Positions 3,272-42,115 of a stretch of 64,000 nucleotides of DNA are shown piece after piece (position 1 is the first letter of the stretch; every line of letters begins with the position of its first letter). The notes beneath the pieces are model-generated. The model was given only the letters and a program-made list of their open reading frames with translations, was not told the DNA's origin and searched no databases. Source of the DNA: Actinomucor elegans (taxonomy: Eukaryota > Mucoromycota > Mucoromycetes > Mucorales > Mucoraceae); contig JAMSLZ010000009.1 of assembly GCA_026027325.1 (NCBI GenBank), positions 868,001 to 932,000 on the forward strand, in the 5' to 3' direction. A program made the position numbers and the translations under genes.

Positions 3272-4693
<1,422 letters not shown>

Positions 4694-23567: not shown

Positions 23568-23640
23568 TGGAGAAGCTGGGCGTCGATCCCAGTGCCTCTC
23601 GCATGCTAAGCGAGCGCTCTACCATTTGAGCTACATCCCC
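23568..23640 (-). tRNA. tRNA-Ala (AGC)
   Basis: On the minus strand the 73-nt sequence folds as a tRNA: acceptor GGGGATG with CTTCTCC plus discriminator A; A box TAGCTCAAATGG; anticodon stem CTCGC/GCGAG with loop TTAGCAT (anticodon AGC); T stem CTGGG/CCCAG with loop ATCGACG. The G3:U70 pair that identifies alanine tRNAs is present. One acceptor position (6:67) is U:U instead of the usual U:A. No intron. A LINE abuts the tRNA 5' end one base upstream (23642), so the natural 5' flank has been replaced by retrotransposon sequence. The internal A and B boxes are intact, so it may still be transcribed. Confidence 0.93.
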
Positions 23641-23641
23641 A
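23627..23641 (+). repeat. Target repeat copy 1 (within tRNA-Ala)
   Basis: TGAGCTACATCCCCA is the complement of tRNA-Ala nucleotides 1-14 plus the base before it. The identical 15-mer recurs at 25605-25619, 37232-37246 and 42101-42115, exactly at the LINE junctions, as expected of a target-site duplication repeated with each insertion. Confidence 0.9.
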
Positions 23642-25171
23642 CTCTTCTTCCGCTAACCAAATTTTTCTACACTTGTTGTAGTGAAAAATTTTTTAAGCAG
23701 TTTAAACACGACTAACCTCAGCAAAACTAATAACCAATCTATCAAAACAGTACTGGCCAACATTTCTGTGTCTTCATCTCCTTCATCTGACAAAATCTCG
23801 TCAAATTCTGAACACATTTGTCCGATTTCGCCATCTCTCCATTGTGAAAACATTACGAAGCAAGATCGCAACATCATCTCTTCCGATCAAGTTCAAACTT
23901 TGTCAGAACCTTCCTCTCCGCCCCAAAAGCACGCTGAATTTTTTTCATTGGGTGTTAAAAGGCAGTTTTCATCGCTTTCACCACCTCTTTTTCAAGCCGA
24001 TTTATTTTCACTTAAAAAAACGTCGACCAGCTACTCACACCTCAAGCCAACCAAACTACAGACACCACCAGCCTTCAGTTTGGATTTTTCACCAGCTACT
24101 GCTCCCACTACCACCAAAATGACCGGTATTGTTGATCAATCAGCATTACAACCATTCATGCAAGAGGTCAATCAGCGTTTGAGTCGACTTGAAGACGCTT
24201 ATAGCGAAATCTTTCGACTGCAAAAGGCTCTTGCAGAATCTGAATCTGCTCGCCGAGCTCTCGAAGCTCAAGTTGCCTCTCTTTTGGCCCCTAAAAAGGC
24301 TAAAATCACCGCCAAGGCTGTTACTCTTCCTCTTCCTTCTTCTGGTGCTGCTGTTGTTGGTAAGTCAACAGCTAGCTATGCTTCTGTTGCTGCCACCAAT
24401 GTGTGCAGCAAGAAACCAAAAAAGAAGACTTTGCTTCCACCACCTCGCCGTGCTGCCGCCACAATTGCTCGCCTCTTTGGCCCTAACACTGGTATCCCTC
24501 CAGGATATCAGTTTGTGTACTACTCTACCTCTGTTCGCCGTCCGTTGAAAGAACTGCGTCAGTCCCTTCAGGCCATTGGCTTGAACAACTCTCGCATTCT
24601 GGATATACAATATCCTACAAGTCGTGTTGTTTCGTTCCTGTTGCATAACGACTATACACTTGAATTTACTACAGCTATGCATGCCAATGGCCGTGGTGGT
24701 TCCCCTTGCCTGGATTTTGATCCTTACGACCCTGCCAACCTCAAGGATCCCAAGTTTGCTTCTCTTTCTGGTGACTTGCGAGTCCAAAAGGCTCGCGAGG
24801 TTGAAAACCTTCGTTGTCTCCGTGCTGTCTCGTTTGTCCGTCGTCCGCTTCGTGTCTCTGTTGCTCGTTCGTTTCTTGAAAAAGAGCGAATAAACCAAAA
24901 GCAATTCGATTCCATTTTGGCTGAAGAACTCGCTGCCCGCTCTGCTTCTTCTCCTCCTGGTCCCACCAGCTCCTCCTCAAGTCCACCCTCTGATGAAAAG
25001 AGGTTAGCAAGGAAACAGCGCTTGTGCTATCTAAGCTATCTCCTTCATCATGACAAGGAAACTGCGTCTCTGTTGTCTCGCGTCCCCTCTCCGACTGTCT
25101 CTCAAGTGGAAGAAGCGGAGATGATGACCGAGTAATTCCCCCGTTTTTTCTCTCGCTCGCCGCTTTGGTCG

Positions 25172-25206
<35 letters not shown>

Positions 25207-25604
25207 TGATCTTTCTTTTCTTCTGGTCCTAGTACCCTTTCCAACGCTGTTTGCTTTTGCTTCTTGTTCTCTCCTTTTTTTCTTGCTTTTTTTGTGGATT
25301 CCCGGATGTTGGTGTATGTCTTTTGGTTTGGCTGCGGTGTGTCTGTCGAGGTGTTCCCCATGTGAACAGTTCCCACCCCCAATCTTCTGCTGCTTCTCAT
25401 CTTTCATCTTTTTTATGTTCTTCTTTTCTTTCCCGTAGTTTTTTGTTGTCTTTTTATAGTTTGGTCTAAACCTCCATTAGGAGCTTAGGATTTATTGTAC
25501 AACCTATAATATAGACTTTTTGCTGCTTTGCTCCTGGTATTGCAACTAAATGCTCCATAGAGCGAATGCATATAGAATACTATCAATAAACAAAATCTTT
25601 AAAC
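23642..25604 (+). mobile_element. LINE A: ORF1-only non-autonomous element
   Basis: This 1.96-kb unit lies between two copies of the 15-bp target repeat. It starts CTCTTCTTCCGC like LINEs B and C and ends with a related 3' tail (ATGCTCCATAGAG...AATCTTTAAAC; B and C have ATGCTCTATAGAG...AATCTTTAAAC). It encodes only an ORF1-type protein; the roughly 470 bp after the stop hold a (CT)n tract (about 25180-25206) and no endonuclease or RT remnant. I infer a HAL1-like parasite that borrows the ORF2 protein of its relatives through the shared 3' tail. Confidence 0.8.
24119..25135 (+). CDS. LINE A ORF1 protein
   Basis: From the first ATG (24119) 338 residues can be read. A predicted coiled coil (LQPFMQEVNQRLSRLEDAY through the Ala/Leu/Glu-rich stretch to about residue 60) is followed by a basic linker and a domain homologous to ORF1 of LINEs B and C (GYQFVYYSTSVRRPLKELR through SFVRRPLRVSVARSFLEKE). 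That domain has an RRM-like beta-alpha-beta look and probably binds the element RNA as a trimeric or multimeric chaperone. No zinc knuckle is seen. The C-terminus is Ser/Pro-rich. The same frame is open for 146 codons upstream (from 23681) without an ATG, ending at a TAG at 23678-23680, so initiation at a non-AUG codon cannot be excluded. Confidence 0.75.
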   Translation: MTGIVDQSALQPFMQEVNQRLSRLEDAYSEIFRLQKALAESESARRALEAQVASLLAPKKAKITAKAVTLPLPSSGAAVVGKSTASYASVAATNVCSKKPKKKTLLPPPRRAAATIARLFGPNTGIPPGYQFVYYSTSVRRPLKELRQSLQAIGLNNSRILDIQYPTSRVVSFLLHNDYTLEFTTAMHANGRGGSPCLDFDPYDPANLKDPKFASLSGDLRVQKAREVENLRCLRAVSFVRRPLRVSVARSFLEKERINQKQFDSILAEELAARSASSPPGPTSSSSSPPSDEKRLARKQRLCYLSYLLHHDKETASLLSRVPSPTVSQVEEAEMMTE

Positions 25605-25619
25605 TGAGCTACATCCCCA
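25605..25619 (+). repeat. Target repeat copy 2 (A/B junction)
   Basis: TGAGCTACATCCCCA directly between the 3' tail of LINE A and the 5' end of LINE B. Confidence 0.9.
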
Positions 25620-25806
25620 CTCTTCTTTCGCTTTTGAAAACTTTTTTCAAAAATCCACTTTTTCAAAGCCGAATATCTCAACAACTACTATACATCCATC
25701 TATAAAAATTGCACATCCATCTTCGCCTCGCCAAGTACTATCTGCAGTTTTTTTTTCAGAACATTCCATCAAGTTTTCGACATCTTGAAGTTTTCTCCAT
25801 TTCGAA

Positions 25807-26751
25807 ATGTCCAATGTTCAACATGCATCTGAGCCATCTGGCCTAATTGACCAAATGCAATTGCAGCAAATGGTCTTTTCTGTCGTTCAACAAGTGCAAC
25901 AACACCAAACTGTTTTTCAAGAGCTTCAAGCTTTGAAAGACACAATTCAAACCCTACAGTCAGAAAAACAAGCCCTTGCTGATGAAAACCAGCAATTACG
26001 TACCGAGATCTCAAAGCTAATGTCCAAAATCTCAAATCCCATTGCCAATGTCGATCAGCCATTGGTTAATTCTCAAGTCTCCCCTGAAGTAAAAGTGGCT
26101 AAACCCACATTTGCTTCTGTTGCCGCTGCTCCTACTCGCCAAAAGAGTAAGAATTCTGGTTCTGTTTCGCTTAAGAAACGCATTGCTGCAGCCCGTGTGT
26201 TCAAGACCGCAGAAGCCCAAGGCCCACAAGGTTTTACCTACGTGTATCTTGGCCGCTCTCGCAAGTTTGACCGTTTGGAAGTCCGGTCCCGTCTCCGTCG
26301 TGCTGGTGTTGACACTGGCCGTGTGATTGATGTCTGTTTCCCCGCCTCTGGTGTCATTGGTATCTTGTTACATACTCAGTATGTAGAAAAGTTCACTGAG
26401 CTTATGACTATTGCCGAAGCCGAATTTATCAAGGATTTTGATCCATTGGACCCTGCCCATTTAGCTGATCCACGCTATGACTCTCTTTCACTGGATGCTA
26501 GGGCTAATGAAATGGCCAAAATCGTTCACTCTCGATGCATCAATACATTGTCCTTTGTACGTCCCTTGCTCGTCTCCTCTGTTGGTCGCTCCTTTGTTGA
26601 GAAAGGATGGATGGATGATGAAACTCTTGACCATGTCATGGTGGATGCTCGTCGCCGGCTTGCTGAACAAGATCCTAAGAAGGCTGCTTTTGCCTTCCGT
26701 CGCTCTGGTAAAGACATCTCTGGTGATAGCGATACTGAAATGTCACAATAA
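25807..26751 (+). CDS. LINE B ORF1 protein
   Basis: 314 residues. Residues about 15-80 form a Gln/Leu-rich coiled coil (QMVFSVVQQVQQHQTVFQEL onward). Residues about 125-280 form the conserved RNA-binding-like domain (GFTYVYLGRSRKFDRLEVR; AGVDTGRVIDVCFP; LLHTQYVEKFTELM; FIKDFDPLDPAHL). The first 12 residues are identical to ORF1 of LINE C, after which the two diverge. Its TAA stop overlaps the ORF2 ATG in TAATG (26749-26753). Expected to coat element RNA in the ribonucleoprotein particle. Confidence 0.88.
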   Translation: MSNVQHASEPSGLIDQMQLQQMVFSVVQQVQQHQTVFQELQALKDTIQTLQSEKQALADENQQLRTEISKLMSKISNPIANVDQPLVNSQVSPEVKVAKPTFASVAAAPTRQKSKNSGSVSLKKRIAAARVFKTAEAQGPQGFTYVYLGRSRKFDRLEVRSRLRRAGVDTGRVIDVCFPASGVIGILLHTQYVEKFTELMTIAEAEFIKDFDPLDPAHLADPRYDSLSLDARANEMAKIVHSRCINTLSFVRPLLVSSVGRSFVEKGWMDDETLDHVMVDARRRLAEQDPKKAAFAFRRSGKDISGDSDTEMSQ

Positions 26752-27715
26752 TGACATCTTCAGTCCCTCCTTTCATTTCTGCTACTCCTGTCACTCCTTT
26801 GAACAATCCTGTCCGCTCCTTCTCTCTTGCATTGTGGAATGCCAATGGTCTTCGGGTCACTACCATCCACGATGTACTCTCTCATGCTCTCTCTTGTGAT
26901 ATCCTCCTGATTACTGAAACTTGGCTTACCTCTGGGTTGATCCCTACCGATTGGTCTCAATATCATCTGTACGGTCAAACTGTCACTAATGCCAATGGAC
27001 GCGGCTCAGGTGGTGTCACTGCTCTCATCTCTCCTCACTGTCCTTTTACTGTCTCTCAACTTCCGTCTTACAATGCATATACTCTGTCGATCAAGGTTGA
27101 CAAAGTCAATGTGCATTGTGTCTACTTTCCACCCAGTCTCTCGCGTGATCTGGTGCTCTCTTCTCTGAATTCACTGCCTCTTCATTCTGATACTATTATC
27201 TGCGGTGACTTCAATGCACGCCTTGGTGATGTTACTGGTGATTCTGCAACAAATCCTCGTGGTCTAGCTCTACTTCCTTGGATTGAAGAGCGCAGTCTCT
27301 CAGTGTTGAACTCTTCCTTGGCGTATGGTATTGATACATACTGTACCTTCAGAAATGGTGCTGTGGCGAGCAGTATCATTGACTTGTTCTTGACCAACAT
27401 TGGAGGTTCTGGTATGGTGTCTCCTTCTCTTTCTGTTGCTTCTGATCTCTCTTTGGGCTCTGATCATCGTTTGCTTCAGTTGGGGTTCGAGTACATTGCT
27501 GTTTCTGGTGGCTCTTCTGGTGTAGGTGACTCTTCGGTGCTGGCTCCTCGTAGGACATGGAACCTCAGTCGGCTGGCTGAGTCTGAGCCTTTGGCTCTGT
27601 TCCATACTCGGTTTCGGTGTCTGGTTGCTCCTTTGAAGGATATTCTTGCTGGTCTGGTTGGTTCTCCTCCGGATAGTCGTCCACCTATAGATTCACTCAA
27701 TGCATCTCTGAATGA

Positions 27716-27735
27716 CACTATGGCGAAAAAATTGG
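27716..27735 (+). repeat. Left terminal inverted repeat of the DNA transposon
   Basis: CACTATGGCGAAAAAATTGG, exact reverse complement of 34460-34479. Preceded by target duplication ATGA. Confidence 0.95.
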
Positions 27736-27823
27736 CTGCTAATATGCCAAAATGGGCAGGTAAACTGCCAATTTTTACTTATAATGCCTTGGCTGTTTTA
27801 ATGCAGTAAAAAATTTTCAAATA

Positions 27824-27945
27824 GCCAATAAAGGCATATTAATAGCCAAGGAAACTGGCAGAAAATATGCCAATAAGAGCATATTAGTAGCCAAGGAAAC
27901 TGGCAGAAAATATGCCATTATGGGCATATTAGTAGCCAATACTCT
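27824..27945 (+). repeat. 45-bp subterminal direct repeats, about 2.6 units
   Basis: Units beginning GCCAATAAAGGCATATTA (27824), GCCAATAAGAGCATATTA (27869) and GCCATTATGGGCATATTA (27914) repeat with a 45-bp period and contain inverted GCCAA/TTGGC cores. Similar cores occur near the right end (34258-34458). Subterminal repeats of this kind bind the transposase or accessory protein in CACTA elements; that role is inferred here. Confidence 0.8.
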
Positions 27946-29084
27946 CATTTTCAGTCTGCCAAATGGTACCATTAATGAATTGAAATATACGTATATACGT
28001 TTATGAAAATAATTATATTTTAATAATAATATTGATTTTATTACTTTTTCTTTCATTAGATCAAATAGTATAGTATAAAATATATAGTATAAAGCATATA
28101 TAAAGGTAAAATATACCTGCTATATAGTAATATATATCCAGGAAAAATATCAACATAGCAATCAACTTACCGTTACCAGTCCTTTAATAAACGCACAAGA
28201 GTAGTCATTCATACAGAAAAATAAAAGACAAAGTGACAAAAGCAACTAAACACCGGTTATATTAGTCATTATTATGAAGGATAACTTATAAATCTTTGAT
28301 AAAACTAACCTTAAACCAATCAAACGAACAAATTACTCAATCATCTACTGCTACAACTATTCAAAAAGGAAGATGGTTAGACTAATAAAGCCTAAAGTAT
28401 ATACTTTAACAATGTAGTAATACATACCTGTGGAGCTTGCGTCGCATAGCAACGCGTACGTAATATACTACGCGACAATAGTACATTTAGAAAATAACAA
28501 GGCAAAGTTGATCCTATATATGTAAAAGAAAGAAAGAAAGAAAATAACAATGAGTAATTCAGCGAGCAATGAATTGTAAAAAGAAACATACCAAAGTCAA
28601 ACAAATGCAGCCTCTAAAAAAGAAAACACGTTAGAAAACAATAATGTTCGTCATTCTAAAACATGAAAACAATACCTTAAGCAAATATATCAAGAAATGA
28701 AGTATGCTGAGCCTAGGTAGCCATAAATACAGAAAAAGAGACAGAGCTAAGAAGAACTACTACTAAAAAATAAAGCTAACCATTAGAAACAATACAATTC
28801 TATCAAAAATGAATAATATACACTTAAAAAAAAAAGAAAGCATACACACCAAAGCGTCGTAAAAGGGGGCCTTTACTGAAAGAAAAGACAAAAGACAAAT
28901 ATATGCTGCTGCTTTTTAGGTAGGCTATCGAGTTCATTAGTATACTTGTTTAAATAAAAGAAATGAAAAGAAATAAAAAAGTGAAAACATGACGAAAAAA
29001 CTACAACACTCAAAGGCTAAAATGGACGCGTCATTGGCATTCAGCCAATTAAAAAGGACTAAAGTAGACTTTTATTGTTTTCTT

Positions 29085-30231
29085 TTAACTAGATCTGGAA
29101 GCAGCTTTGCCTTTCTTTTGGCGTGAAATTTGAGGCGATTCAACTTCTTCGTCATCATCGCTAAAAACAGTGCGCTCTTCTTCACTATCAACAGCCATCA
29201 TACGTTTTCTTCCTTTAGCAGGGCGAGAAGAGTAATTGGATGCTGATGCAGCTAATTCTCGAATACGAGCAGCAGAATTACTGCAATCGCCAGCAAAAGG
29301 AGATTCTCGTACTTGAACCGCAGAAGCAAAGCAATGCTGATTTAACACACTGTTTATATATATAAAAAAAATATGTGAATAAAAAGGCTGTTGAGCAATA
29401 AATTGCAAATGTCCCATACCTGAACTCAGATTCATTTTCTAAATCAATAGAAACATCACTTCTTTCAGCTTCGTTGTGATAAAATACATTACCTGTTAAA
29501 CCAGAGGCAGACATAGAAGCGGTAGAGATGGAAGCTTTACTCTTTAAACCGTTGTTCTTGTTTTTCAATACTGCAGTAATCAAAAGCTTTGCACCCCACA
29601 TTTCTTTGCATAAATGCAAATCGATATGATTCTCATCCAAAGCCTTCTTTTCCAAGATAAGACAATAGCGTTCTTGAATGCTAGTATCAATTTTGGCGAT
29701 ATCTTTAAACGACATACCGTCAACGTATTCACTAGTCTTTTTCAATTCCTTAATCATTGTCTGCACGACATCTCTTGCTGTCATGCGCAACTGATTATAC
29801 AGATCATTGACCTCCACGTCAGTTACGGTTGTGTTCCGCTTTCGTTCTTCCAGTAGCCTGACAAGAGATTTGAGACGTTTGGCAGCGTGAGGAGTGGCAT
29901 TCTTCTTGGTAGGAATAAAGCCTTCCTTTGCTTCCTCAGGTACCTTTTCAATGCATCTTCTGCTTCTCAAATTGGGATTAGCGACATTGGCAATCGCTTC
30001 ATTTCTCGCTGTATAGAAGTGTTAATTACAGTATCAACCAAAAGCATCAAAAATGAATATACCTTGGACGAGAGCTTGTTCCATTTGTTCACTTGAAGAT
30101 TGTGCTACTCTTTCGCTTGGAAAGACAGGAGCCAAGATATGGATCAAATCTTGAAGCATTTGGCGGGTGCCCAGAATATCTTGTTGCATCTTAGCGAGCG
30201 CTTGCATAATAGCATCGTTGTTGTTAGGCAT
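29085..30231 (-). CDS. Transposon companion protein, unrecognised
   Basis: Three exons (30231-30063, 30008-29420, 29349-29085; introns GTATAT...ACAG and GTATGG...ACAG) give 340 residues. Residues 1-60 (MPNNNDAIMQALAKMQQ...) look helical/coiled-coil. The middle is rich in Lys/Arg and predicted helices (HAAKRLKSLVRLLEERKR; KELKKTSEYVDGMSFKDIAK). The C-terminal 60 residues mix basic (KGRKRMM, RQKKGKAA) and acidic (DSEEER, DDDEEVE) patches, as in nuclear DNA-binding proteins. No known domain recognised. It lies inside the CACTA-like element, divergent from the transposase, the position occupied by TnpA-type accessory proteins in plant CACTA elements; a subterminal-repeat-binding role is inference. 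Confidence 0.72.
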
Positions 30232-30613
30232 TGTTTAAATAAAATAAGACTTTTTAGAATAAAAAGAGAACATATAATAATACATATGTCAAGATATATA
30301 TATATATATAGAACTGTACTTCACCTTCATAAAACTAGTACGTCATAGTATTTTGATCGACCCTTTTGAGGAGATAACCTATTGTTATAAGTGTCTAAAA
30401 GAATAGAACCTACTAATTCAAGTTACAAAGACAATGTGCTATATGTTTTGATCGATACTTTTGAGGAAATAGTGTTGTTGGAAGCATCCCAAAGAATAAA
30501 ATATAGTCATAGAAGTTGTGAATTCAATGTCATAAGAAAAAATATAAAAGGTTATCCATATATCACATATAATACCTTTTAATTATTATCCATATAAACA
30601 TACATACTTCAAA
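30232..30613. promoter_or_regulatory. Bidirectional promoter region with a direct repeat
   Basis: The 382-bp gap between the divergent transposon genes. TTTTGATCGACCCTTTTGAG (30351-30370) is repeated as TTTTGATCGATACTTTTGAG (30446-30465), and similarity continues for about 60 bp. Also a (TA)n tract near 30295-30310. The paired 95-bp-spaced repeats could be binding sites that co-regulate both genes. Confidence 0.55.
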
Positions 30614-33600
30614 ATGCCAGCCGTTAGAAACCAAAACAAGTACAAATGCGATAGTTGTGTAAGAACATTTAGAACTATCAAGCAGAGATGCAACCATTAT
30701 CAATATTATCGTGACCACAAGAAAAGCGTTAACCGAGCCCAAGAAGCAACCATTGGTAAATTAATAACCTTGAACCATGTATGTTTCACTAATTCATCAT
30801 CTTTATAGAACCTACTTCAATGGACCTTGGACCCATTCCAATGGAACAAGTAGAGGATGGTGGTACTCCTATTATCCATAATGTCAGATCCACTGATGAA
30901 AACGCGTTTACCAGCACTGAATTAAATAGTATCCAGTTCAAAGATATCTGCGATACATTCAGCATTTCTCGTGAGGCTCAAAGAGAACTTGTATATTTGA
31001 TCCGTACTATAATCAAGAACAACGACCAAGACCGCATAACTCATCCAATGGGTAAGCATCTAGTTTGACATGATTAGAACGAAACATAGGCTGATCAAAA
31101 CTTTCTTTTTTACGTACAGGTCATATTCCATCTACTGTCATGTTTCCTGACACATTGGATCACGTACTCAAAAAGAAAACTAGCATCGAGACCAAACTTC
31201 GACAAGTTTGTGTTAATGGTTGCATGCTTTTTGCTGATGATGATATCGAGACAGCTTTCTGTAAAAATCCTATATGTAAAGAAAGTCGTTTTGATGATGA
31301 TGGTAAACCTCGCCGCCATATGAAGATGCTGTCAGTTGGTGAGCAGGTTGCCAAAATGCTTGGAAATACCAAGATCAGAAATATGATGAGATATCGTCAT
31401 AATTATGAATCAATTGATGGTGTTTACAAAGATTATTTTGATGGTGCTGCTTATAAGGTATTTTCACAAGGTCATGAAAGAATTTTCACTGGTGAAGATG
31501 ATGTAGCCATGGCTCTGTTTGTTGATGGTTTTCGGACAAGTAAGGGCAATACAGGTGACAAGTTGACTATTGTACATCTTCTTAACTTTAACATCCCTCC
31601 CGAGTACCGCTACCAAGACGAGTATATGCTTCAGTTAGCTATTCTTCCTGGACCAAACAATCCAAAATATATTGATACTTTCCTTCAACCTATTATTGAC
31701 GAGTTTAATAATCTGTCCACCAAAGGTTTGCTTGTTCAAAAAGATGGTATCGATATCTGTCACGCTCGTGTACATTTGGTGATGGCTACTGGTGATCTCC
31801 CTGCAGCTGCTGAATTGGCACACCATGATGGACACATGGCTACCTTTGGTTGTCGAATTTGTCGTATCAAAACCCAGCGTCATGATCATCACACTTGCTT
31901 TTTAACTATTGAAGACGAGATCCGAAACACTAACGACTTTAAGAATCCAAATGCCATCGCTGTAAGTATCACTGACAAAGAAAACAATGTTATTCCTTTT
32001 ATCAACAACAACTGAGTACTTCACTTTTACCTTTTCATAGCATTATAACATCAAGACTCCAACACCATTTGCAAAATTACCTTCCTTTACGGGATCGACG
32101 TATTTTGGTTTGGATGAAATGCATCTTATCGGTCAAGGTATTGCCAAACATGTGTTCGAGATGCTGACTGTCACCATGGGAAAAGATTATAATAAGGCCA
32201 TCAACACCAAATACAAGCCAACCGATGAAGAACTTGAGCGTGAAGGTTATACATCTGAAAAGCAGTGGCCGTACACCTTTAACATACCAAAGGAATCCTT
32301 GATGACCATTGGTAAACTTATTGAAGCTTCGAGGGTAACTGTTCCAACGACGTTTGCATCTAAATGGGAGAATCCCATTATCAAAAGCGGCGGAAAGCGA
32401 GCAGTTGACTGGGTTGATATCCTTTTGTACATGGTTCCAACTTTGTTTGTCCCGGCACTAAATCAAGAACGATCCAAAAAGCCACTTTTGGCGTTAACAA
32501 AAGCTGCTGCATTATCATTAAAGTGGGAGCTTGATCATGAGGACCTTGCAATGATAGAAAGGTGAGCAAACTAATATCTTGCATTGTATGAAAATAACCT
32601 CACTTACATGTTCTTTAAAGTAATATAAAACAATGGAACAGCTTTTTGTTGCGAGAAATCGACGCAAAGCGCATCCATCCTGGTATCCTAAAACCAGTGC
32701 AACATTATCTTTCACACATTGTCTATATGATTAAGCAACAGGGCGTATTGAGAGCCTACTCAGCGCGTTCAATGGAAAGAAGCATTGGCAAGTACAAAAA
32801 GCTTATAAAGTCAAAAGTCAACGCTGGTGCCAATGCTGGTAATATCTTGGAGAGGCTTACAACCCGTAATCATATCAACAGTCAGTCTTGGAGTGTCCAA
32901 ACCGAACTTGACTTGTTAACGCCTCGTTCATATGCCGAGAATTCTTACAAGAACAATCCTTCTGGTGAAGCTGGTGATCCCCAACTATGGGAACCCTTTC
33001 AAGATTGTCTGGTTACGTCGTTGCCTGCTGGCGTTGATTGTCGCTTTTTTTTAAAGGCTTTGCTGAAATACTATCGTCGAACCGAGGTGAATGGCGCAAG
33101 TATTGTAGGAATTGATTCGTTTGATTCCATTTACATCGCTGGCCGAGCTTGGGCATATAATAACGTGTACACTTCGACACTGTACAAGAATTACATAAGT
33201 GAGCGCCGCCGAGGAAATAACTACATTATGTTTACTGCTAGCTATCTGTAAGTAAAAGCAAACTGATTTTATCATTCATAAAGAAACTTTACTAACTTGC
33301 TTTATTTGTAGCCATAGAAACAATGTTCGCGACAACTGGTTTGTTGGTTCTATTGTTTTCTTTTTTGAACATGAATTCAACAACAAGATTCAATACTTGG
33401 TGTTAGTTGATGTTGCAAGAAGTAATTCCACTACTGACTACGATAAATCGATACCAATGGTGGAATTGAACCATGAAAATGCCCACGCATATGCTGTGTG
33501 TCGTTTTGAAGATATTGTTGCTAGCGTTGGCCTTGTACGTTGCAGTTCTAGCAATAGTAGAAAGTACAAGGTTATTTCTCATCATATCTTTAAGCATGAA

Positions 33601-33636
33601 CTTCATAGCAGTGCTGGTGCTTTAAATCGTTTGTAA
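30614..33636 (+). CDS. Tnp2-like transposase of the CACTA-like element
   Basis: Six exons (30614-30755, 30809-31051, 31120-31961, 32041-32561, 32621-33247, 33312-33636), all phase-consistent, give 899 residues. N-terminal C2H2 zinc finger: C12-x2-C15-x12-H28-x6-H35 (YKCDSCVRTF...). The catalytic core matches the Tnp2/CACTA family: ALFVDGF (D264), then LAILPGPNNPKYIDTFLQP, MATGDLPAAAEL (D354) with the following zinc-binding CRICRIKTQRHDHH, and GLDEMHLIGQGIAKHVFE (D434), a DDD-type triad by pattern. The C-terminal half has helical segments (RAYSARSMERSIGKYKKL) and a final beta-rich domain. It would cut at the CAC...GTG ends and paste the element. No frameshift or stop is seen, so it may be functional. 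Confidence 0.88.
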
Positions 33637-34459
33637 AAAAAATAAAAATAAAAAAATAAAAAGTATAAGAAAAAGACTTCGTAAATAAAAATACGAAATA
33701 AAACCTCTTTTACACCTCAGAAATTTTGACCTTTGCCAATACAATAAAATATTTCCGTATGATTCCTCGACAATTCTGAGGTTAATGTCGCATTTAATCT
33801 CTTGAACATGTTTAGAATAAGTTATTATGTCTACCAGATCTTGTTTAAATTAAAGCTTCAAGCAGAGATTTCATTAAATTGTAGTAATCCGTGCCATTTC
33901 ATTATAATTAGACCTTTAAATCTTAACTCTAGCCTGATTCCAGTCAAACATCACATCTGATTAACATTATATATTCAAAAAAAGCTTCTCAATCTACCAA
34001 AATTTTAACTTAGACTCAAAAAAGCCAATATACATTATATTTATGAATAATTATCTGTAAAGTTTAAACAACTCTTATATCACCAAGTTTACATTTTAAT
34101 AACAACGTTTTTTTTTATCTGCTTATTTTGCACAATATATAAGAGGGTATGGTGTTAGTAATTAATCTAACAGTACAAATACGCTTTAAAAGACTTTAAA
34201 TAAAAAAAATAGCCAGGTCTCCCTTATAAGTAACAGTACTAGCTGAAATTTCACTTTATTGGCATATTTTCAGCCATTATTGGCAGGTACCTGCCAATTC
34301 CAAGAAAAGTCTTTCAGTTTTTTGGCGTCAAAACTTAGAAAAAAAAAATTTTCCTCAATTTTCATTGGCTAATATAACAAATTGGCATAAAATCTGCCTC
34401 TATTGGCATAATTTTAGCCACTAATTGGCATAAAATATGCCTTTATTGGCAGCTAGTAA
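33637..34459. other. Right non-coding arm of the DNA transposon
   Basis: After the transposase stop, an A+T-rich arm with two copies of a dispersed degenerate repeat (about 33780-33835 and 33940-33970), then from 34258 clustered GCCAA/TTGGC motifs such as ATTGGCATAAAATMTGCC, inverted relative to those in the left arm. Confidence 0.65.
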
Positions 34460-34479
34460 CCAATTTTTTCGCCATAGTG
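34460..34479 (+). repeat. Right terminal inverted repeat of the DNA transposon
   Basis: CCAATTTTTTCGCCATAGTG, exact complement of the left terminus; followed by target duplication ATGA. Confidence 0.95.
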
Positions 34480-37231
34480 ATGAGTGTCTCTATCAGGCTA
34501 TGGATGCATCCATTGGGTCTAAGGCTCCCCGTCCTGGTCATTGGAAGAAGTACTGGACTGCTGATCTGGAAGCTGCTGCTCGAGAACGCGATCGTCTCTA
34601 TTGCCGTTGGCGTCATTCGTTTGGTGTTGACAAGGCTTATTACTGGCATCTCCATCTACAAGCCCACAAGTCGTTTCGTCGTGCTGTTGCTGCTGCCAAA
34701 AGGTTATCCTGGAAAAACTTTTGTGCTTCTCTGGAAAAGGATTTCACCAAAGCTACTGCAACCATGGCTCGTCTCAAGCGTCGCAAAGAATCTACTGCTA
34801 CATATAGCCACCCAGATGGTCCCCAAGCCTCTGTGGATACAATGGCTAGTCACTTGGCTTCCGTATATGATGGTTCTCTGTTGGTTACTGCTTCTCGACC
34901 TTCTTTTGATTCTGACTTTGCTCTTGAAACACCATACATGGTTGATGATGAGGTTGCCGATAGCTTGTTCTCCGTGGAGGAATTGGTCTTTCACATCAAG
35001 AAGCTTCCAAATCGCAAAGCTCCTGGTCCGGATCACATCAAGGCTGAAATGCTCAAAGCTGTTGCTGAACTTCTGGCTCCTGTACTCTCTCTGCTGTTTC
35101 TGGTATGCTTCCAATGGAGTTATACACCGTTGATCTGGCGTCAGGCTCAAGTGTTTCCGATCTTCAAGAAAGGTGATGCAGATGATCCAGCCAACTATAG
35201 ACCCATCTCCTTGACCTCTGTTATGCGAAAACTCTTTGAGATATCGTTATCTTCATGTCTGTATGAGCACTCTCCGGCTTTGGATCTTGCACAAGGTGGT
35301 TTCCGTCCTCAGCGTAGTCCTCTGGATCAAGCCCTCTGCTTGCATGACTTGATGCATGACTACTTCTTGGCCCACCATCACTACCCTGTGGTGGCTTTCT
35401 TGGATATCAAAGCTGCATATGATACTGTGGATCGACGCGTTATTTGGGATGCTCTTGCCAACTCTTCTCTGCCTCGTGCTGTTCTTGGTTTGCTAGTCAA
35501 CTTGTTTGACGATGTATCTATTTCAGTATTGATCAACAACCATTCTTCGGCTGCATTTGCACCTGCTACTGGGGTTCTCCAAGGCTCGGTGTTAAGTCCA
35601 CACCTGTACTCCTTGTACATTAACTCTCTGCCTGGTTTACTGCGCTCAACTGCCTCTGCTACTGCAAGTAAAGTGTCTCCGCCTGGTACCATGAGCTATG
35701 TTCCTGTCAACTGCCTCTTGTTTGCTGATGATGTGGCAATCTTTGGCTCGAAATATGAGGTGCAAGAAATGCTTGATTTGGCTGCTGACCATTCAAAATC
35801 TCTCGGTTACCGCTGGAATCCTACCAAGTGTGCTGTTCTGAACGCTCCTTCCGTGACATCTTCCACTTCAACAAATTTTAGATTGACTCTTTACGGGGTT
35901 GCTCTACCATCTGTTGACGAGTTCACTTATCTTGGCATGCCCTTTAGCAAGAAAGGTCTCTTTGGTCCCGGTATTCTGGCAAAACGATCTGGTGGTGCTA
36001 TCAAGACTATGGCTCTCTTGAACTCTGTCGGTGTGAACCGGAATGGCTTTTCTCTGTTGCTCTGTGCTCGGTTGTATACAGCCTTTATTCGACCCAAGTT
36101 CGAATATGGGCTTGCCATCTCTCGACTGTCCGCTACTGACTTTACTGCCCTGGATCAGCTCCAGAATCGTCTTGTTGGTATGTTCGTTGGCTCTCGCTGG
36201 TTCAATGTTGCAAAGCATCTGACTTGTATCCCTTCGATGAAGCACCGCTACAACGTTCTTGTGACCAAGTATGCTTTGCGTTCTCAGTGGCTTCCTGATG
36301 ACTGCCTGGTGTCCATGCTGAATTCAGGTGATTCTGGTATCCCGTATACTCGGCTGGAAAAGCTTCTAAAATGCAATCCCATGTATCTCGCACTCCCTAG
36401 TCCGGTTCCAACAGTCTCGCGTCTCCGCTCTTGGTTTTCACAATACTGGCAAAACTTGTTTGATGACCAAATGGCTGCTGCTGCTACATCTGGTAGATCT
36501 GTTCTCCTGCGTGCTTGTCGACCATGTACTTCTCGGCCTGATCCAATCTTGTATCTCCCAATGTCTCGCACTGCACGTAGTCGGTTGGTTCGATGGCGTC
36601 TTGGTAGGTTCACCAACCGTGATGAACTGTGTCCCTGTTTCTCTGGCTCCCGACTCTCTCGAGACCATTTTGTCTTTGATTGCCGCGGTATTGACCCAAG
36701 CCTGTTCTCTCAACTGCCTGATACCCCTCCGGATGTCAATGCCATCGATCATGCTCTCAATTGCTTGCCTACCAAAGCCTCTGCTGGTCCACCTCCTTTC
36801 TGGCCTGCTCTTCTTGAACTGCTCTATGTGATTGACACGCTGTGTCATCCTCTTGCCACACTTGTTCATGATCCAGATCCAGGTGATGCTTGGTTTGCTG
36901 CTACTCCTGCCATATAAACCTCTCCTTGGTTTATTGAGCCACTCTTTCTCTCTGTTCTATTGATGAACCAGCCTGTTTGTCTTTCAACTGCGCAGCCACG
37001 GTGGTAAGTGATTATCAAAGTTCCCAGCTGTTGGCCTGCCTTTTGGATCACTCAGAGCTGCAATAGTCTACTGGTTCTCTAACTTGTCTTCAACCTTTTT
37101 CTCCCTTGTGGGTCTCAGGGTTTTTTATACTTTTTTCTATGTTTACTTTAAACACTTTTCATATAGTTAGGCTAGATGCTCTATAGAGTTTGCCCATATA
37201 ACTACTTATAAATAAAATATAATCTTTAAAC

Positions 37232-37246
37232 TGAGCTACATCCCCA
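37232..37246 (+). repeat. Target repeat copy 3 (B/C junction)
   Basis: TGAGCTACATCCCCA directly between the 3' tail of LINE B and the 5' end of LINE C. Confidence 0.9.
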
Positions 37247-37433
37247 CTCTTCTTTCGCTTTTGAAAACTTTTTTCAAAAATCCACTTTTTCAAAGCCGAA
37301 TATCTCAACAACTACAATACATCCATCTATAAAAATTGCACATCCATCTTCGCCTCGCCAAGTACTATCTGCAGTTTTTTTTTCAGAACATTCCATCAAG
37401 TTTTCGACATCTTGAATTTTTCTCCATTTCGAA

Positions 37434-38393
37434 ATGTCCAATGTTCAACATGCATCTGAGCCATCTGGCTCAATGGACCAAATGCAACAGCCAATGCAGT
37501 TCCAGCAGCTACAGCAAATGGTGTTTTCACTTGTTCAGCAAGTGCAACAACATCAAACATTATTTGAAGAGCTCCAGACCTTGAAAAATGAGATTCTTGG
37601 ACTCAAAACCGAAAACCAGGCTCTGGTTAATGAAAATAACCAACTTCGAGCACAACTCTCTGCTGCCACCGCTCGTAGTCCACCGCAGGATGTCGCTTCT
37701 CCCGCCCAGGAAAAAAATGGTGCCCGGTCTTTCGCTGCCATTGCTGCAGCCGCTGTAAAAAAGGACAGCCGCCCCTCTCGCCCTGCTGCCGTTTCCCTAA
37801 AGAAACGTATAGCCGCTGCTCGCGCCTTCAAAACCCTTGAGGCCCAGGGTCCTCAGGGTTTTACCTATGTTTATCTTGGTCGATCTCGCAAACTTGATCG
37901 TACTGAAGTCCGCTCTCGGTTACGTCGCGCTGGTGTTGACACTGGTCGTGTGTTAGATGTCTGTTTCCCTGCTACTGGTGTCCTTGGTGTCCTGATACAT
38001 ACGCAGTATGTTGAAAAGTTTACCGAGCTTATGACTACGGCTGAAGCTGAGTTCATTAAGGATTTTGATCCTTTAAACCCAGCCCATCTTGCTGACCCCA
38101 AGTATGCTTCTCTCTCAGCCAATGCTCGTGAAAACGAGATGGCTAACCTCGTTCACTCTCGCTGTATCAGCACTCTGGCGTTCATTCGACCAGTGATGGT
38201 CCCTTCTGTTGGTCGCTCCTTTGTGGAACTTGGATGGATTGATGATGGTGATCTTGATCAAGCCATTAAGGAAGCTCGCTCTCGTCTTGCCGAAAAGGAT
38301 CCCAAGAAGGCTGCTTTTGCATTCCGTAGTTCTGGTGCTTTGCCATCTGGTGAAGACGTTACCGGTGATAGCGATACTGAAATGTCACAATAA
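37434..38393 (+). CDS. LINE C ORF1 protein
   Basis: 319 residues: Gln-rich coiled coil (about 15-85), Ala/Pro-rich linker, then the conserved RNA-binding-like domain (about 130-290) with GFTYVYLGRSRKLDRTEVR, AGVDTGRVLDVCFP, THTQYVEKF-like and FIKDFDPLNPAHL segments. C-terminus TGDSDTEMSQ matches that of LINE B (SGDSDTEMSQ). Stop TAA overlaps the ORF2 ATG. No zinc knuckle. Inferred role: RNA chaperone of the retrotransposition particle. Confidence 0.9.
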   Translation: MSNVQHASEPSGSMDQMQQPMQFQQLQQMVFSLVQQVQQHQTLFEELQTLKNEILGLKTENQALVNENNQLRAQLSAATARSPPQDVASPAQEKNGARSFAAIAAAAVKKDSRPSRPAAVSLKKRIAAARAFKTLEAQGPQGFTYVYLGRSRKLDRTEVRSRLRRAGVDTGRVLDVCFPATGVLGVLIHTQYVEKFTELMTTAEAEFIKDFDPLNPAHLADPKYASLSANARENEMANLVHSRCISTLAFIRPVMVPSVGRSFVELGWIDDGDLDQAIKEARSRLAEKDPKKAAFAFRSSGALPSGEDVTGDSDTEMSQ

Positions 38394-41300
38394 TGACATC
38401 TTCAGTCCCTCCTTTCACTCCTTCTGATACCCCCGTCCGCTCCTTTTCTCTTGCATTGTGGAATGCCAATGGCCTTCGGGTCACTACCATCCATGATGTA
38501 CTCTCTCATGCTCTCTCTTGTGATATCCTCCTGATTACTGAAACTTGGCTCACCTCTGGGTTGATCCCTACCGATTGGTCTCAATATCATCTGTACGGTC
38601 AAACTGTCACTAATGCCAATGGACGTGGCTCAGGTGGTGTCACTGCTCTCATCTCTCCTCACTGTCCTTTTACTGTCTCTCAACTTCCGTCTTACAATGC
38701 ATATACTCTGTCGATCAAGGTTGACAAAGTCAATGTACATTGTGTCTACTTTCCACCCAGTCTCTCTCGTGATCTGGTGCTCTCTTCTCTCAACTCACTG
38801 CCTCTTCACACTGATACTATTATCTGCGGTGACTTCAATGCACGCCTTGGTGATCTTACTGGTGATTCTGCAACAAATCCTCGTGGTCTAGCTCTGCTTC
38901 CTTGGATTGAAGAACGCAATCTGTCAGTGTTGAATGCTTCCTTGGCGTATGGTATTGATACATACTGTACCTTCAGAAATGGTGCTGTGGCGAGCAGTAT
39001 CATTGACTTGTTCTTGACCAACATTGGTGGTTCTGGTATGGTGTCTCCTTCTCTTTCTGTGGCATCCGATCTGTCTTTGGGCTCTGATCATCGGCTGCTT
39101 CAGTTGGGGTTCAAGTACATTGCTGTTTCTGGTGGCTCTTCTGGTGTAGGTGACTCTTCGGTGCTGGCTCCTCGTAGGACATGGAACCTCAGTCGGCTGG
39201 CTGAGTCTGAGCCTTTGGCTCTGTTCCATACTCGGTTTCGGTGTCTGGTTGCTCCTTTGAAGGATACTCTTGCTGGTCTGGTTGGTTCTCCTCCGGATAG
39301 TCGTCCACCTATAGATTCACTCAATACATCTCTGAATGAGTGTCTTTATCAGGCGATGGATGAATCCATTGGGTCTAAGGCTCCCCGTCCTGGTCATTGG
39401 AAGAAGTACTGGACAGCTGATCTGGAAGCTGCTGCTCGAGAACGTGATCGCCTCTATTGCCGTTGGCGTCATTCATTTGGTGTTGACAAGGCTTATTACT
39501 GGCATCTCCATCTGCAAGCTCACAAGTCGTTTCGTCGTGCTGTTGCTGCTGCAAAAAGACTCTCCTGGAAGAACTTTTGCATGTCACTCCAAAAGGACTT
39601 TGCCAAGGCCACTGCCACCATGTCTAGGCTGAAACGCCGGAAAGAAACTTCTGCTACGTATGCTCATCCTGATGGCCCTCAAGCATCAGTCGATTCTATG
39701 GCTACTCACCTGGCTACAGTGTATGATGGTTCTCTTTTGTCAACTGCTTCTCGTCCCCTGGCTGCTCCTGACTTTGGTTTAGAAGTGCCTTTCCTGGTGT
39801 CTGATGAAGAAGTGTCTTGGATTTTCTCGGTGGAAACCTTGGTTGAGCATATCAAACAGTTGCCGAATCGCAAAGCTCCTGGTCCTGATCATCTAAAAGC
39901 TGAAATGCTCAAGGCTGTTGCTGATTTACTTGCTCCTGTCCTCTCTTTGCTATTCCAGGTTTGTTACCAATGGTGCTATACACCGGTTCTATGGCGTCAA
40001 GCCCAGGTCTTTCCTATCTTCAAGAAAGGTGATGCTTCTGATCCTGCCAACTACAGGCCAATTTCTTTGACTTCGGTGATGCGTAAGTTGTTTGAGATTA
40101 CCATTGCACAAAGCGTCTATGACCATTCGCCTTCTCTAGATCTCGCACAAGGTGGCTTCCGTCCTATGCGTAGTCCTCTGGATCAAGCCCTCTGTCTGCA
40201 CGACCTGATGCACAACTACTTCTTGGTTCATCACCACTATCCTGTTGTTGCTTTTCTGGATATTAAGGCTGCCTATGACACTGTTGATCGATGTGTGATC
40301 TGGAATGCTCTTGAGAATTCATCTCTGCCTCGGCCTCTCCTTGGTCTGCTGGTCAATCTATTTGATGATGTATCCATCTCCGTGTTGATTGCCAACCACA
40401 TCTCTTCCTCTTTCTCTCCTGCCACTGGTGTACTCCAAGGTTCGGTGTTGAGTCCTCACTTGTATTCTTTGTACATCAACTCCTTGCCTGAGCTCCTTCG
40501 GTCTGAAGCTTCAGATACTACTGCTGTAGTGTCTCCTCCTGGATCTGCTGAGGCTGTGGCCATTAACTGTCTTCTGTTTGCCGACGATGTGGCAATCTTT
40601 GGCTCCAAACATGAGGTGCAAAATATGTTGAACTTAGCTGCTGATCATTCAAGAGTACTGGGCTATCGTTGGAACCCTACCAAGTGTGCTGTCCTGAACG
40701 CTCCTTCTGTGACCTCCTCTACGTCTACCAACTTTAGACTGAGTCTCTATGATGTTCCTCTGCCTGCAGTGAACGAGTTCACGTATCTTGGTATGCCATT
40801 CAACAAGAAAGGTCTTGATGGTCCGGGTATCCTGGCTAAACGGTCTGGTGGTGCAGTCAAAACCATGGCTCTACTGAATTCGGTTGGTGTCAACCGTAAT
40901 GGTTTCTCTCTCTTGCTCTGTTCTCGGTTATATACTACCTTCATTCGGCCCAAGTTTGAGTACGGTCTTGCTATATCTAGGCTCTCTGCTGCTGACTTTA
41001 CTGCTTTGGATAACCTTCAGAACCGGTTAGTTGGTATGTTTGTTGGCTCCCGATGGTTCAATGTCACGAAGCACATCACTTGTATCCCTTCCATGAAGCA
41101 TCGATACAATGTCCTGGTTACCAAGTATGCCCTACGGTCGCAATGGCTTCCGGATGATTGCTTGATATCATTGCTGAACTCTTCTCGAGACAATTCTCCT
41201 TCTGGTCTTGGCTACACTCGATTGAACAAGCTCCTATACCTCAATCCTATGCATATGGCATTGCCCAATCCTGTACCTACAGCCTCTCGTCTCAAGTCCT

Positions 41301-41785
41301 GGTTCTCTGGCTACTGGCAAGACCTCTTTGACAAGCAAATGGCTGCTGCTGCTCACACTGGTAAATCGGTTCTTTTGCGTGCTTGTCGGCCCTCTACTTC
41401 AAAGCCTGATCCAATACTGTACCTGCCTATGACTCGCGCTGCTCGCAGTCGTCTTGTTCGATGGCGCTTAGGCCGTTTCGCTAACCGTGATGAATTGTGT
41501 CCTTGTTTCACTGGTTGCCGGCTCTCTCGAGATCACTTTGTGTTCAATTGCCGTGGCATTGATCCTCGCCTTCTGTGCCAATTACCTGCTGCTCCGCCAG
41601 ATGTCAATCGCATTGATCATGCCCTGAACTTGTTGCCCTTGAAAGCATCCAATGGTCCACCGCCTTTCTGGTCTGCACTCCTTGAGATTCTCTATGTGAT
41701 TGACACGCTGTGTCATCCTCTTGCTGCTATCGTCCCAGATCCAGATCCTGGTGATGCCTGGTTTGCTGCTACTCGTACTATATAA
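38393..41785 (+). CDS. LINE C ORF2: APE endonuclease + reverse transcriptase
   Basis: 1130 residues, uninterrupted. Residues about 1-235: APE/EEP endonuclease with LALWNANGL, LLITETW, IICGDFNARLGD, SSIIDLFLT and GSDHRLLQL, all expected catalytic residues present. Residues about 470-760: RT with LPNRKAPGPDHLKAEM, ANYRPISLTS, LAQGGFRPMRSPLDQ, VVAFLDIKAAYDTVD, GVLQGSVLSPHLYSLYIN, LLFADDVAIFG (catalytic FADD) and LGYRWNPTKCAVL. C-terminus (about 1040-1065): Cys/His knuckle CPCFTGCRLSRDHFVFNC. No RNase H domain recognised. It would nick the tRNA-Ala target and prime cDNA synthesis on the 3' tail. ATG overlaps the ORF1 stop (TAATG at 38391-38395), suggesting reinitiation. Confidence 0.95.
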   Translation: MTSSVPPFTPSDTPVRSFSLALWNANGLRVTTIHDVLSHALSCDILLITETWLTSGLIPTDWSQYHLYGQTVTNANGRGSGGVTALISPHCPFTVSQLPSYNAYTLSIKVDKVNVHCVYFPPSLSRDLVLSSLNSLPLHTDTIICGDFNARLGDLTGDSATNPRGLALLPWIEERNLSVLNASLAYGIDTYCTFRNGAVASSIIDLFLTNIGGSGMVSPSLSVASDLSLGSDHRLLQLGFKYIAVSGGSSGVGDSSVLAPRRTWNLSRLAESEPLALFHTRFRCLVAPLKDTLAGLVGSPPDSRPPIDSLNTSLNECLYQAMDESIGSKAPRPGHWKKYWTADLEAAARERDRLYCRWRHSFGVDKAYYWHLHLQAHKSFRRAVAAAKRLSWKNFCMSLQKDFAKATATMSRLKRRKETSATYAHPDGPQASVDSMATHLATVYDGSLLSTASRPLAAPDFGLEVPFLVSDEEVSWIFSVETLVEHIKQLPNRKAPGPDHLKAEMLKAVADLLAPVLSLLFQVCYQWCYTPVLWRQAQVFPIFKKGDASDPANYRPISLTSVMRKLFEITIAQSVYDHSPSLDLAQGGFRPMRSPLDQALCLHDLMHNYFLVHHHYPVVAFLDIKAAYDTVDRCVIWNALENSSLPRPLLGLLVNLFDDVSISVLIANHISSSFSPATGVLQGSVLSPHLYSLYINSLPELLRSEASDTTAVVSPPGSAEAVAINCLLFADDVAIFGSKHEVQNMLNLAADHSRVLGYRWNPTKCAVLNAPSVTSSTSTNFRLSLYDVPLPAVNEFTYLGMPFNKKGLDGPGILAKRSGGAVKTMALLNSVGVNRNGFSLLLCSRLYTTFIRPKFEYGLAISRLSAADFTALDNLQNRLVGMFVGSRWFNVTKHITCIPSMKHRYNVLVTKYALRSQWLPDDCLISLLNSSRDNSPSGLGYTRLNKLLYLNPMHMALPNPVPTASRLKSWFSGYWQDLFDKQMAAAAHTGKSVLLRACRPSTSKPDPILYLPMTRAARSRLVRWRLGRFANRDELCPCFTGCRLSRDHFVFNCRGIDPRLLCQLPAAPPDVNRIDHALNLLPLKASNGPPPFWSALLEILYVIDTLCHPLAAIVPDPDPGDAWFAATRTI

Positions 41786-42100
41786 ACCTCTCCTTGGTTT
41801 ATTGAGCCTCTCTTTCTCTCTGTTCTATTGATGAACCAGCCTGTTTGTCTTTCAACTGCGCAGCCACGGTGGTAAGTGATTATCAAAGTTCCCAGCTGTT
41901 GGCTTGCCTTTTGGATCACTCAGAGCTGCAATAGTCTACTGGTTCTCGCTCTTGTCTTTAACCTTTTTCTCCCTTGTGGTTCTCAGGGTTTTTTATACTT
42001 TTTTCTATGTTTATATTAAACACTTTTTCATATAGTTAGGCTAGATGCTCTATAGAGTTTGCCCATATAACTACTTATTAATAAAATATAATCTTTAAAC

Positions 42101-42115
42101 TGAGCTACATCCCCA
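42101..42115 (+). repeat. Target repeat copy 4 (outer right boundary)
   Basis: TGAGCTACATCCCCA followed by TATAGTAGTAAGACC. This right flank is presumably the original 5' flank of the tRNA-Ala gene before the LINEs entered. Confidence 0.88.

Follow-up and report, generated by a model that had tools for sequence, protein, structure and literature searches.

LINE elements at a tRNA-Ala gene of Actinomucor elegans

The window analysed here is a 64,000-nucleotide stretch of the Actinomucor elegans genome (C27:868001-932000 in our contig labels, from an assembly of 36.5 Mb in 27 contigs), in which a chain of long interspersed nuclear elements (LINEs) abuts the 5' end of an intact tRNA-Ala(AGC) gene. 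An earlier note on this DNA had described three LINEs, all in the same direction, docked on the gene. Their order, their shared direction and the intact tRNA gene are confirmed, whereas the count is not, as the chain consists of two autonomous LINEs and one short partner that has only a frame resembling open reading frame 1 (ORF1). The components of the locus are given below by window position.

23567..23641, minus strand: tRNA-Ala(AGC) gene, intact (ARAGORN; Rfam 54.4 bits at 23568-23640)
23627..23641, plus strand: 15-mer TGAGCTACATCCCCA, exact, inside the tRNA gene; proximal target-site copy
23642..25604, plus strand: short element of 1.96 kb (1963 bp) with an ORF1-like frame only, sharing the LINE 5' start CTCTTCTT and 3' end ATCTTTAAAC
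23681..25135, plus strand: ORF1-like frame of the short element, 484 aa from GTG
25605..25619, plus strand: second 15-mer copy, exact
25620..37231, plus strand: autonomous LINE of a second subfamily, broken by a nested insertion; its ORF2 piece is 83% identical to the third element
~27716..34479, no strand assigned: nested insertion in ORF2 of the second LINE, with CACTA-like ends CACTATGGCG...CGCCATAGTG and ATGA on both sides, by eye
37232..37246, plus strand: third 15-mer copy, exact
37247..42100, plus strand: autonomous LINE, uninterrupted, 4854 bp
37434..38393, plus strand: ORF1 of the third element, 319 aa, overlapping the ORF2 start; weak coiled-coil-type Pfam matches only, below cut-offs
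38393..41785, plus strand: ORF2 of the third element, 1130 aa, with AP-type (apurinic/apyrimidinic) endonuclease and reverse transcriptase, and a C-terminal Cys/His motif by eye
42101..42115, plus strand: distal 15-mer copy, exact; the putative old target boundary
42115..42234, plus strand: putative displaced native tRNA-Ala 5' flank, resembling the flank of an empty tRNA-Ala gene (C27:1133231-1133304)

All three elements open with CTCTTCTT and close with ATCTTTAAAC, and they run head to tail from the tRNA-Ala 5' end with TGAGCTACATCCCC(A) between them. The first 15-mer in the window is the complement of tRNA-Ala nucleotides 1-14 plus one base, and the earlier report of this complement at every junction holds exactly (at 23627, 25605, 37232 and 42101). 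Its length is better given as 14 or 15 bp, because the fifteenth base, A, both precedes CTCTTCTT and is the native distal base, and the bases at this place vary among other copies. In 100 shuffles a mean of 0.06 matches to the 15-mer was obtained at up to two mismatches, and the fifth match listed in the window, at 3594, has two mismatches and is linked to no element. The nested insertion in the second LINE is 6.8 kb long and carries short subterminal repeats.

Element ends across the genome

The 15-mer has 47 matches in the genome, and the 14-mer that remains without its last A has 84 exact matches and five with one mismatch, compared with about 0.3 expected in a random genome of equal size (our own arithmetic) and one match at up to one mismatch for the reversed 14-mer. 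The 84 exact copies comprise 11 in tRNA-Ala genes, 72 directly behind LINE 3' ends and one at a doubled junction (C14:147411), and one of the five one-mismatch variants also lies at an element end. Junction context was read base by base at 60 of the 84 sites and taken from coordinates at the other 24.

Counts of element ends rest on sequence patterns, and the BLAST searches for the two ends scored the best 40 of 60 and of 51 candidates. The LINE 3'-end pattern occurs at 100 places with up to two mismatches, and an exact 14-mer follows directly at 69 of the 70 exact places, one of the five with one mismatch and two of the 25 with two mismatches, or 72 of 100 in total. The remaining exact 3' end (C1:35265) runs into a variant that matches the 14-mer at 13 of 14 bases, and the 27 pattern matches that lack an adjoining 14-mer are fewer than the 54 found with the reversed pattern. 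By our count, 18 of the 70 exact 3' ends are of the short type. The 5'-end pattern was found at 66 places (58 exact, eight with two mismatches; nine for the reversed pattern), and 57 of the 58 exact 5' ends lie 0-12 nt past a 14-mer, 35 of these at 1 nt.

Judged on both exact 3' and exact 5' ends, most copies thus sit at one exact site of a multicopy gene, which is how a target-specific element is recognised. The earlier note had proposed this genome search and had named two outcomes that would speak against it, namely that most copies lie at unrelated sites or that the 15-mer travels as the 3' end of the element away from tRNA genes. Neither was found, since 72 of the 100 3'-end matches adjoin the exact 14-mer and unrelated DNA on both sides was seen at none of the 60 sites read.

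The 3' junction is base-identical in all 48 element-to-14-mer junctions read, while the bases at the 5' junction vary (A 26, CA 6, CCCC 4, CC 2, others), and 5'-truncated copies keep the same 3' junction (for example C8:388660, C8:389640 and C21:46259).

Arrays and tRNA-Ala loci

BLAST identified 11 tRNA-Ala genes, all identical over 73 nt, of which eight carry elements. The 84 exact 14-mers and the 13/14 variant were grouped by hand by contig and strand, which placed 82 of the 85 sites in 13 groups (one of them a single site) on nine contigs with differing junctions; the other three sites are empty tRNA-Ala genes, with no element match in the 1.4 kb before or after them. Eight groups start at a tRNA-Ala gene and contain 2-16 sites over 4.9-103 kb each. 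At these eight occupied genes the element begins 0-2 nt past the 14-mer, and one of them (C8:389640) is 5'-truncated.

At least 45 ORF2 pieces were listed among the best 41 of 270 candidates, and all 45 lie inside groups and on the same strand as their group; 26 of them span at least 1090 of the 1130 residues without a stop. The family looks recently active, as suggested by the frequent identity over 1 kb between copies on separate contigs. A link to telomeres was sought in 1.5 kb at each of five contig ends near groups, where 0-1 TTAGGG/CCCTAA words and no element match were found.

At C8:318940-389712, two facing arrays lie between two outward-facing tRNA-Ala genes over ~70 kb, perhaps a pericentric block; the ~4.7 kb between the arrays has no element match and contains a transposase-like frame by eye. 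At C7:508634 and C8:20141, the flanking elements are 99.7-99.9% identical over 1 kb and have the same 5' junction, and the two sites may perhaps be a dispersed duplication.

Target-site duplication and proposed mechanism

The sequence ATATAGTAGTAAGACCA that follows the last 14-mer of the window (42101) is matched at 17 of 17 bases by the flank of an empty tRNA-Ala gene, C27:1133232. When 120 nt of this distal flank were compared with that of the same gene, the local score was 55, against a maximum of 23 in 300 letter shuffles. The other two empty genes match ATATAGTAGTAAGACCA at 11 and 13 of 17 bases and are weak over 120 nt (score 12, with 198 of 300 shuffles as good, and score 19, with 6 of 300), and the remaining 56 sites read match at no more than 8 of 17. 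Because the DNA past the last window 14-mer matches the 5' flank of an empty gene, the 14-mer is best read, from these alignments, as a target-site duplication. The native-like flank at the far end of the array in the window also supports the earlier proposal that insertion duplicates its target and leaves the tRNA gene whole.

We therefore consider it highly probable that a LINE family with an AP-type endonuclease (APE), together with its short ORF1-only partner, inserts at one position of tRNA-Ala(AGC) genes. From the base-identical 3' junction, the nick that primes synthesis falls just past TGGGGATGTAGCTCA on the sense strand of the tRNA gene. This first nick would separate A14 from the base behind it (TGGGGATGTAGCTCA / AATGG), a position within the A box (TAGCTCAAATGG), and a second nick, as the duplication implies, would follow 14-15 bp away at the tRNA 5' end; the order of the nicks is our assumption. 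Target-primed reverse transcription would begin at the first nick and leave the element in antisense orientation relative to the tRNA, the two 5' ends abutting, a process for which variable 5' junctions and 5' truncations are the expected products. The duplication would restore nucleotides 1-14 to the tRNA gene and leave a second copy at the far side. Since the duplication rebuilds the site, further copies could land there and arrays could grow by repeated landing, and some array stretches look as if they were multiplied as tandem blocks. At the doubled junction C14:147411, AAAC of the element end is repeated together with the 14-mer, which could have arisen from landing inside an array or from slippage. 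The tRNA genes presumably still work after insertion, as we assume from the intact gene body and the T-runs behind it. The protein that recognises the tRNA-Ala site is a part of the model that we infer.

Several observations weigh against this account. An RNA that itself carried the 14-mer would lead to an identical final structure, and no copy was found away from the groups that could separate a duplication from an RNA-borne 14-mer. Native flank was sought at up to three mismatches and matched at the far end of the array in the window and at the three empty genes, with no match at the other array ends, most of which were not read. The exact 5' end at C1:41409 is the single one without a preceding 14-mer. 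Five of the 13 groups have no tRNA-Ala start in the DNA read, in which their true proximal ends were not reached: for the C7, C21 and C22 (2.13 Mb) groups, 1.8-2.4 kb read towards the proximal side contained no element match, and the C1 and C15 groups run towards contig ends, where 1.5 kb contained no element. No age gradient outward from the tRNA was seen; in the eight tRNA-anchored groups, intervals of uninterrupted length made up 4/8 of the first, 0/6 of the second, 3/6 of the third, 1/5 of the fourth and 3/5 of the fifth positions. Three loci (C14:120786, C22:739201 and C8:318999) share rearranged 3'-side repeats in pieces of 89-365 nt at 94-100% identity, and because of such sharing the full independence of the eight tRNA-Ala loci is not certain.

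The specificity for tRNA-Ala also has an exception. At C13:386382, a tRNA-Met gene has a diverged short-element 5' end (87% over 55 nt) at a distance of 1 nt from its own 5' end, just where elements sit at tRNA-Ala, so specificity is not absolute. The other three of the four tRNA-Met genes have no element in the 110 nt read, and the tRNA-Met counterpart of the 14-mer has exactly four matches, all in these four genes, with no far junction there. Around the nick, tRNA-Met and tRNA-Ala both have GCTCA and GGTAGAGCG. On these shared motifs, the lineage seems to read the A-box region with a strong preference for tRNA-Ala.

Alternative explanations

The tRNA-Met copy bears on the alternative that survives best, in which the RNA polymerase III (Pol III) machinery guides the element, as for Dictyostelium TRE5-A, and a local sequence preference sets the exact bond. 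This overlaps with direct recognition of the tRNA-Ala site by the element and differs from it only in what recognises the site. We regard guidance by Pol III as a real but doubtful possibility. The position of the site in the A box fits it, as does the related 5' end at the corresponding position of one tRNA-Met gene out of four, a gene that has GCTCA and GGTAGAGCG in common with tRNA-Ala. Against it, occupancy is very uneven (8 of 11 tRNA-Ala(AGC) genes compared with 1 of 4 tRNA-Met genes), and among the tRNA matches listed in a genome search with RF00005 (best 63 of 2052 candidates) no exact LINE end was found at any other tRNA kind. The 3' junctions are moreover base-exact, unlike the ranges of distances given for TRE5 (PMC5911963).

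A second alternative assigns the 14-mer to the element itself, with an RNA that ends in the tRNA-Ala complement, anneals to the nicked gene and enters without any duplication. The presence of the 14-mer at all 72 recognised 3' ends, whatever the subfamily, agrees with this. However, no copy carrying the 14-mer was found outside the groups, and autonomous and short elements have different last 20 bases but the same 14-mer, which was sought as such. The contiguity of the 14-mer with native-like flank at the far end of the array in the window argues against it as well, and we judge an RNA-borne 14-mer improbable.

A third alternative, which we judge equally improbable, is that segmental or tandem duplication of a few insertions, and not repeated landing, produced most of the arrays. 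Some growth does look like tandem duplication, because four consecutive C22 elements (701-718 kb) share the rare CCCC 5' junction, and two adjacent intervals there are both 4872 bp. C7:508634 and C8:20141 are mutual nearest copies, and several tRNA-Ala loci have common 3'-side repeats. As the main source of the arrays, though, duplication is hard to credit: autonomous and short elements occur together in the groups, in various orders and with varied 5' junctions, and near-identical elements are found at loci with much less similar 3' flanks. The elements at C14:120786 and C25:14743 are both 100% identical to the second LINE of the window over 1.4 kb, and their 3' flanks have only pieces of up to 160 nt in common; those at C1:1225478 (951 nt) and C8:90015 (1399 nt) are 100% and 99.9% identical to the third LINE, and their 3' flanks are 83.6% identical.

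Chance or an assembly artefact, for which no supporting point was found, can practically be dismissed, given some 0.3 expected 14-mers, the single match of the reversed pattern, and sites on nine contigs with differing junctions.

Elements and their proteins

Pfam matches to an Exo_endo_phos endonuclease and RVT_1 in a single ORF2, together with the fixed 3' end, the 5' truncations and the variable 5' junction, identify the autonomous element as an APE-type non-LTR (long terminal repeat) retrotransposon. The Pfam scan of ORF2 gave no RNase H match. Among solved structures, ORF2 is closest to human L1 ORF2p (1.2e-19), followed by 8gh6 (9e-15) and entries named R2 (2.6e-11 and weaker). When the best 8000 candidates were scored, its nearest protein relatives were a JGI protein (98%) and proteins of Mucor velutinosus (64%) and M. 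saturninus (61%), with weaker named relatives in Cokeromyces, Dichotomocladium, Rhizopus, Phycomyces and Umbelopsis, and relatives of the family are therefore spread through Mucorales. As for the host, an RGS protein encoded in the window shows 79-80% identity to named proteins of Mucor ambiguus, M. mucedo, Parasitella and Pilaira. One ORF2 query against viral contigs gave no match.

Over 143 aa, the frame of the short element shares 34% identity with ORF1 of the autonomous LINE, and it had no match in a Pfam scan at E 0.001. The mammalian HAL1 is a LINE derivative that retains ORF1 only, and the short element resembles it in ORF1-only content; what the short element shares with the autonomous LINE is just the ends and part of ORF1. 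Both element types have a small hairpin ~40 nt from the 3' end (GCTC-TATA-GAGT and GCTC-CATA-GAGC, each folded singly), a candidate recognition feature for a common reverse transcriptase.

Comparison with known elements

LINEs that adjoin tRNA genes, as the Actinomucor family does, are known from Dictyostelium, where the L1-type elements TRE5, TRE3 and NLTR-A of D. purpureum lie near many tRNA genes (PMC5911963, PMC5006619). TRE5 has an AP-type endonuclease, inserts upstream and antisense of the tRNA gene and contacts TFIIIB, and in D. discoideum a TRE is present at 61% of the tRNA genes (PMC5911963, PMC5006619); NLTR-A inserts 2-6 bp upstream of the tRNA gene and has an RNase H (PMC5006619, PMC5911963). 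TRE5 and TRE3 use many tRNA genes over a range of distances, whereas the Actinomucor family uses mainly one tRNA family and one bond in the A box, and it also differs from the Dictyostelium LINEs in the repeat of tRNA nucleotides 1-14 and in its long arrays. A TRE-type pattern, tens of bp from many different tRNAs, is not what we see, since the insertions fall at one bond of one tRNA family with one tRNA-Met case.

NeSL-related LINEs are found in single tRNA families, namely NeSL-1_TV in tRNA-Pro, LIN15_SM in tRNA-Arg and LIN25_SM in tRNA-Glu (PMC4640811). Like the Actinomucor LINE they are sequence-specific for one tRNA family, but they occur in other organisms and have a restriction-like endonuclease; the AP-type endonuclease of the Actinomucor LINE places it outside the NeSL clade. 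Keno, Mutsu and Dewa belong to the Tx1 clade. R1 and Tx1 have been named as target-specific APE clades (PMC4640811), and the zebrafish elements Keno, Mutsu and Dewa target U2 small nuclear RNA genes, 5S rRNA genes and a tRNA-Leu spacer, respectively (PMC3706591, PMC4640811). The likeness to these animal elements lies in a fixed site in a multicopy RNA gene. Dada DNA transposons also target tRNA genes, including tRNA-Ala and in some cases the A box (PMC3706591), but these are DDE transposons that insert inside genes with 6-7 bp duplications, and the tRNA-gene target is what they have in common with the Actinomucor LINE.

Within Mucorales, Grem-LINE1 of Mucor circinelloides/lusitanicus is L1-like, pericentric and present in many copies, with a 5.9-kb copy at stated coordinates and with zf-RVT and ORF1 zinc-finger domains in the family (PMC7377519). 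Both are mucoralean LINEs with many copies, of 4.85 kb in Actinomucor as against 5.9 kb. The Actinomucor LINE differs from Grem-LINE1 in that no Pfam match to zf-RVT in ORF2 or to a zinc finger in ORF1 was found up to E 1. The word tRNA is absent from the main text of the Grem-LINE1 paper (PMC7377519). The link to tRNA genes found in our searches of the Mucorales literature concerns LTR elements only, in Rhizopus (Ty3; PMC2699053). In literature that covers subscription journals thinly, no fungal LINE specific for a tRNA gene was found, so novelty in print is not certain. In other organisms such precise homing is already known in outline.

An AP-type-endonuclease LINE confined, with few exceptions, to one bond of one tRNA gene family is of interest for several reasons. 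Insertion would return the lost part to the target, so that survival of the host gene is possible and the site becomes available again, and a self-renewing target would explain how long head-to-tail LINE arrays originate. Empty and filled tRNA-Ala genes in a single genome form a compact system for asking whether LINE specificity resides in the endonuclease or in the Pol III complex, and whether tRNA genes function after loss of their native 5' flank. At 8 of 11 tRNA-Ala(AGC) genes the upstream region is now an element end. A more speculative and rather unlikely extension is that the LINE has taken over this tRNA family and that the two have co-adapted, the element end serving as the start region of the tRNA gene and the tRNA gene in turn as promoter or boundary of arrays that reach 100 kb and may be pericentric blocks, like the facing pair on C8. 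In that case an A-box-reading lineage could move from one tRNA species to another, of which the tRNA-Met copy gives a hint.

Other observations

A 154-bp solo-LTR-like repeat (TGTCGTG...CCTGACA; C8:318767-318920) occurs downstream of tRNA 3' ends in either orientation. Among the best 40 of 108 candidates, 18 of 52 matches fall 19-221 nt downstream of a tRNA gene, at 15 of the 67 tRNA genes listed, and no match falls within 250 nt upstream of one; the 67 genes are 56 of the 63 RF00005 matches, with those on C19 left out, plus the 11 tRNA-Ala genes. By reading, the repeat is also present at C1:1225478, C8:90015 and C8:389640. Its association with tRNA genes is looser than that of the tRNA-Ala LINE. 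Three places share, by eye, a repeat end like TTGTTGCATGTTGCATTTGGTTATTACCGC: one ~10 nt upstream of a tRNA-Met gene (C22:2631221-2631530), one beyond a LINE fragment at another tRNA-Met gene and one at the array junction C1:53877. The repeat end may perhaps mark one more tRNA-linked element.

Near the C22 group at 2.13 Mb, C22:2125501-2127500 has no match to the window elements and contains, by eye, a frame resembling the AP-type endonuclease of a different LINE. On C19, three pairs of tRNA matches (among the best 63 of 2052 candidates) are repeated at a spacing of 36,950 bp, as if a circular, perhaps mitochondrial, genome had been assembled more than once around.

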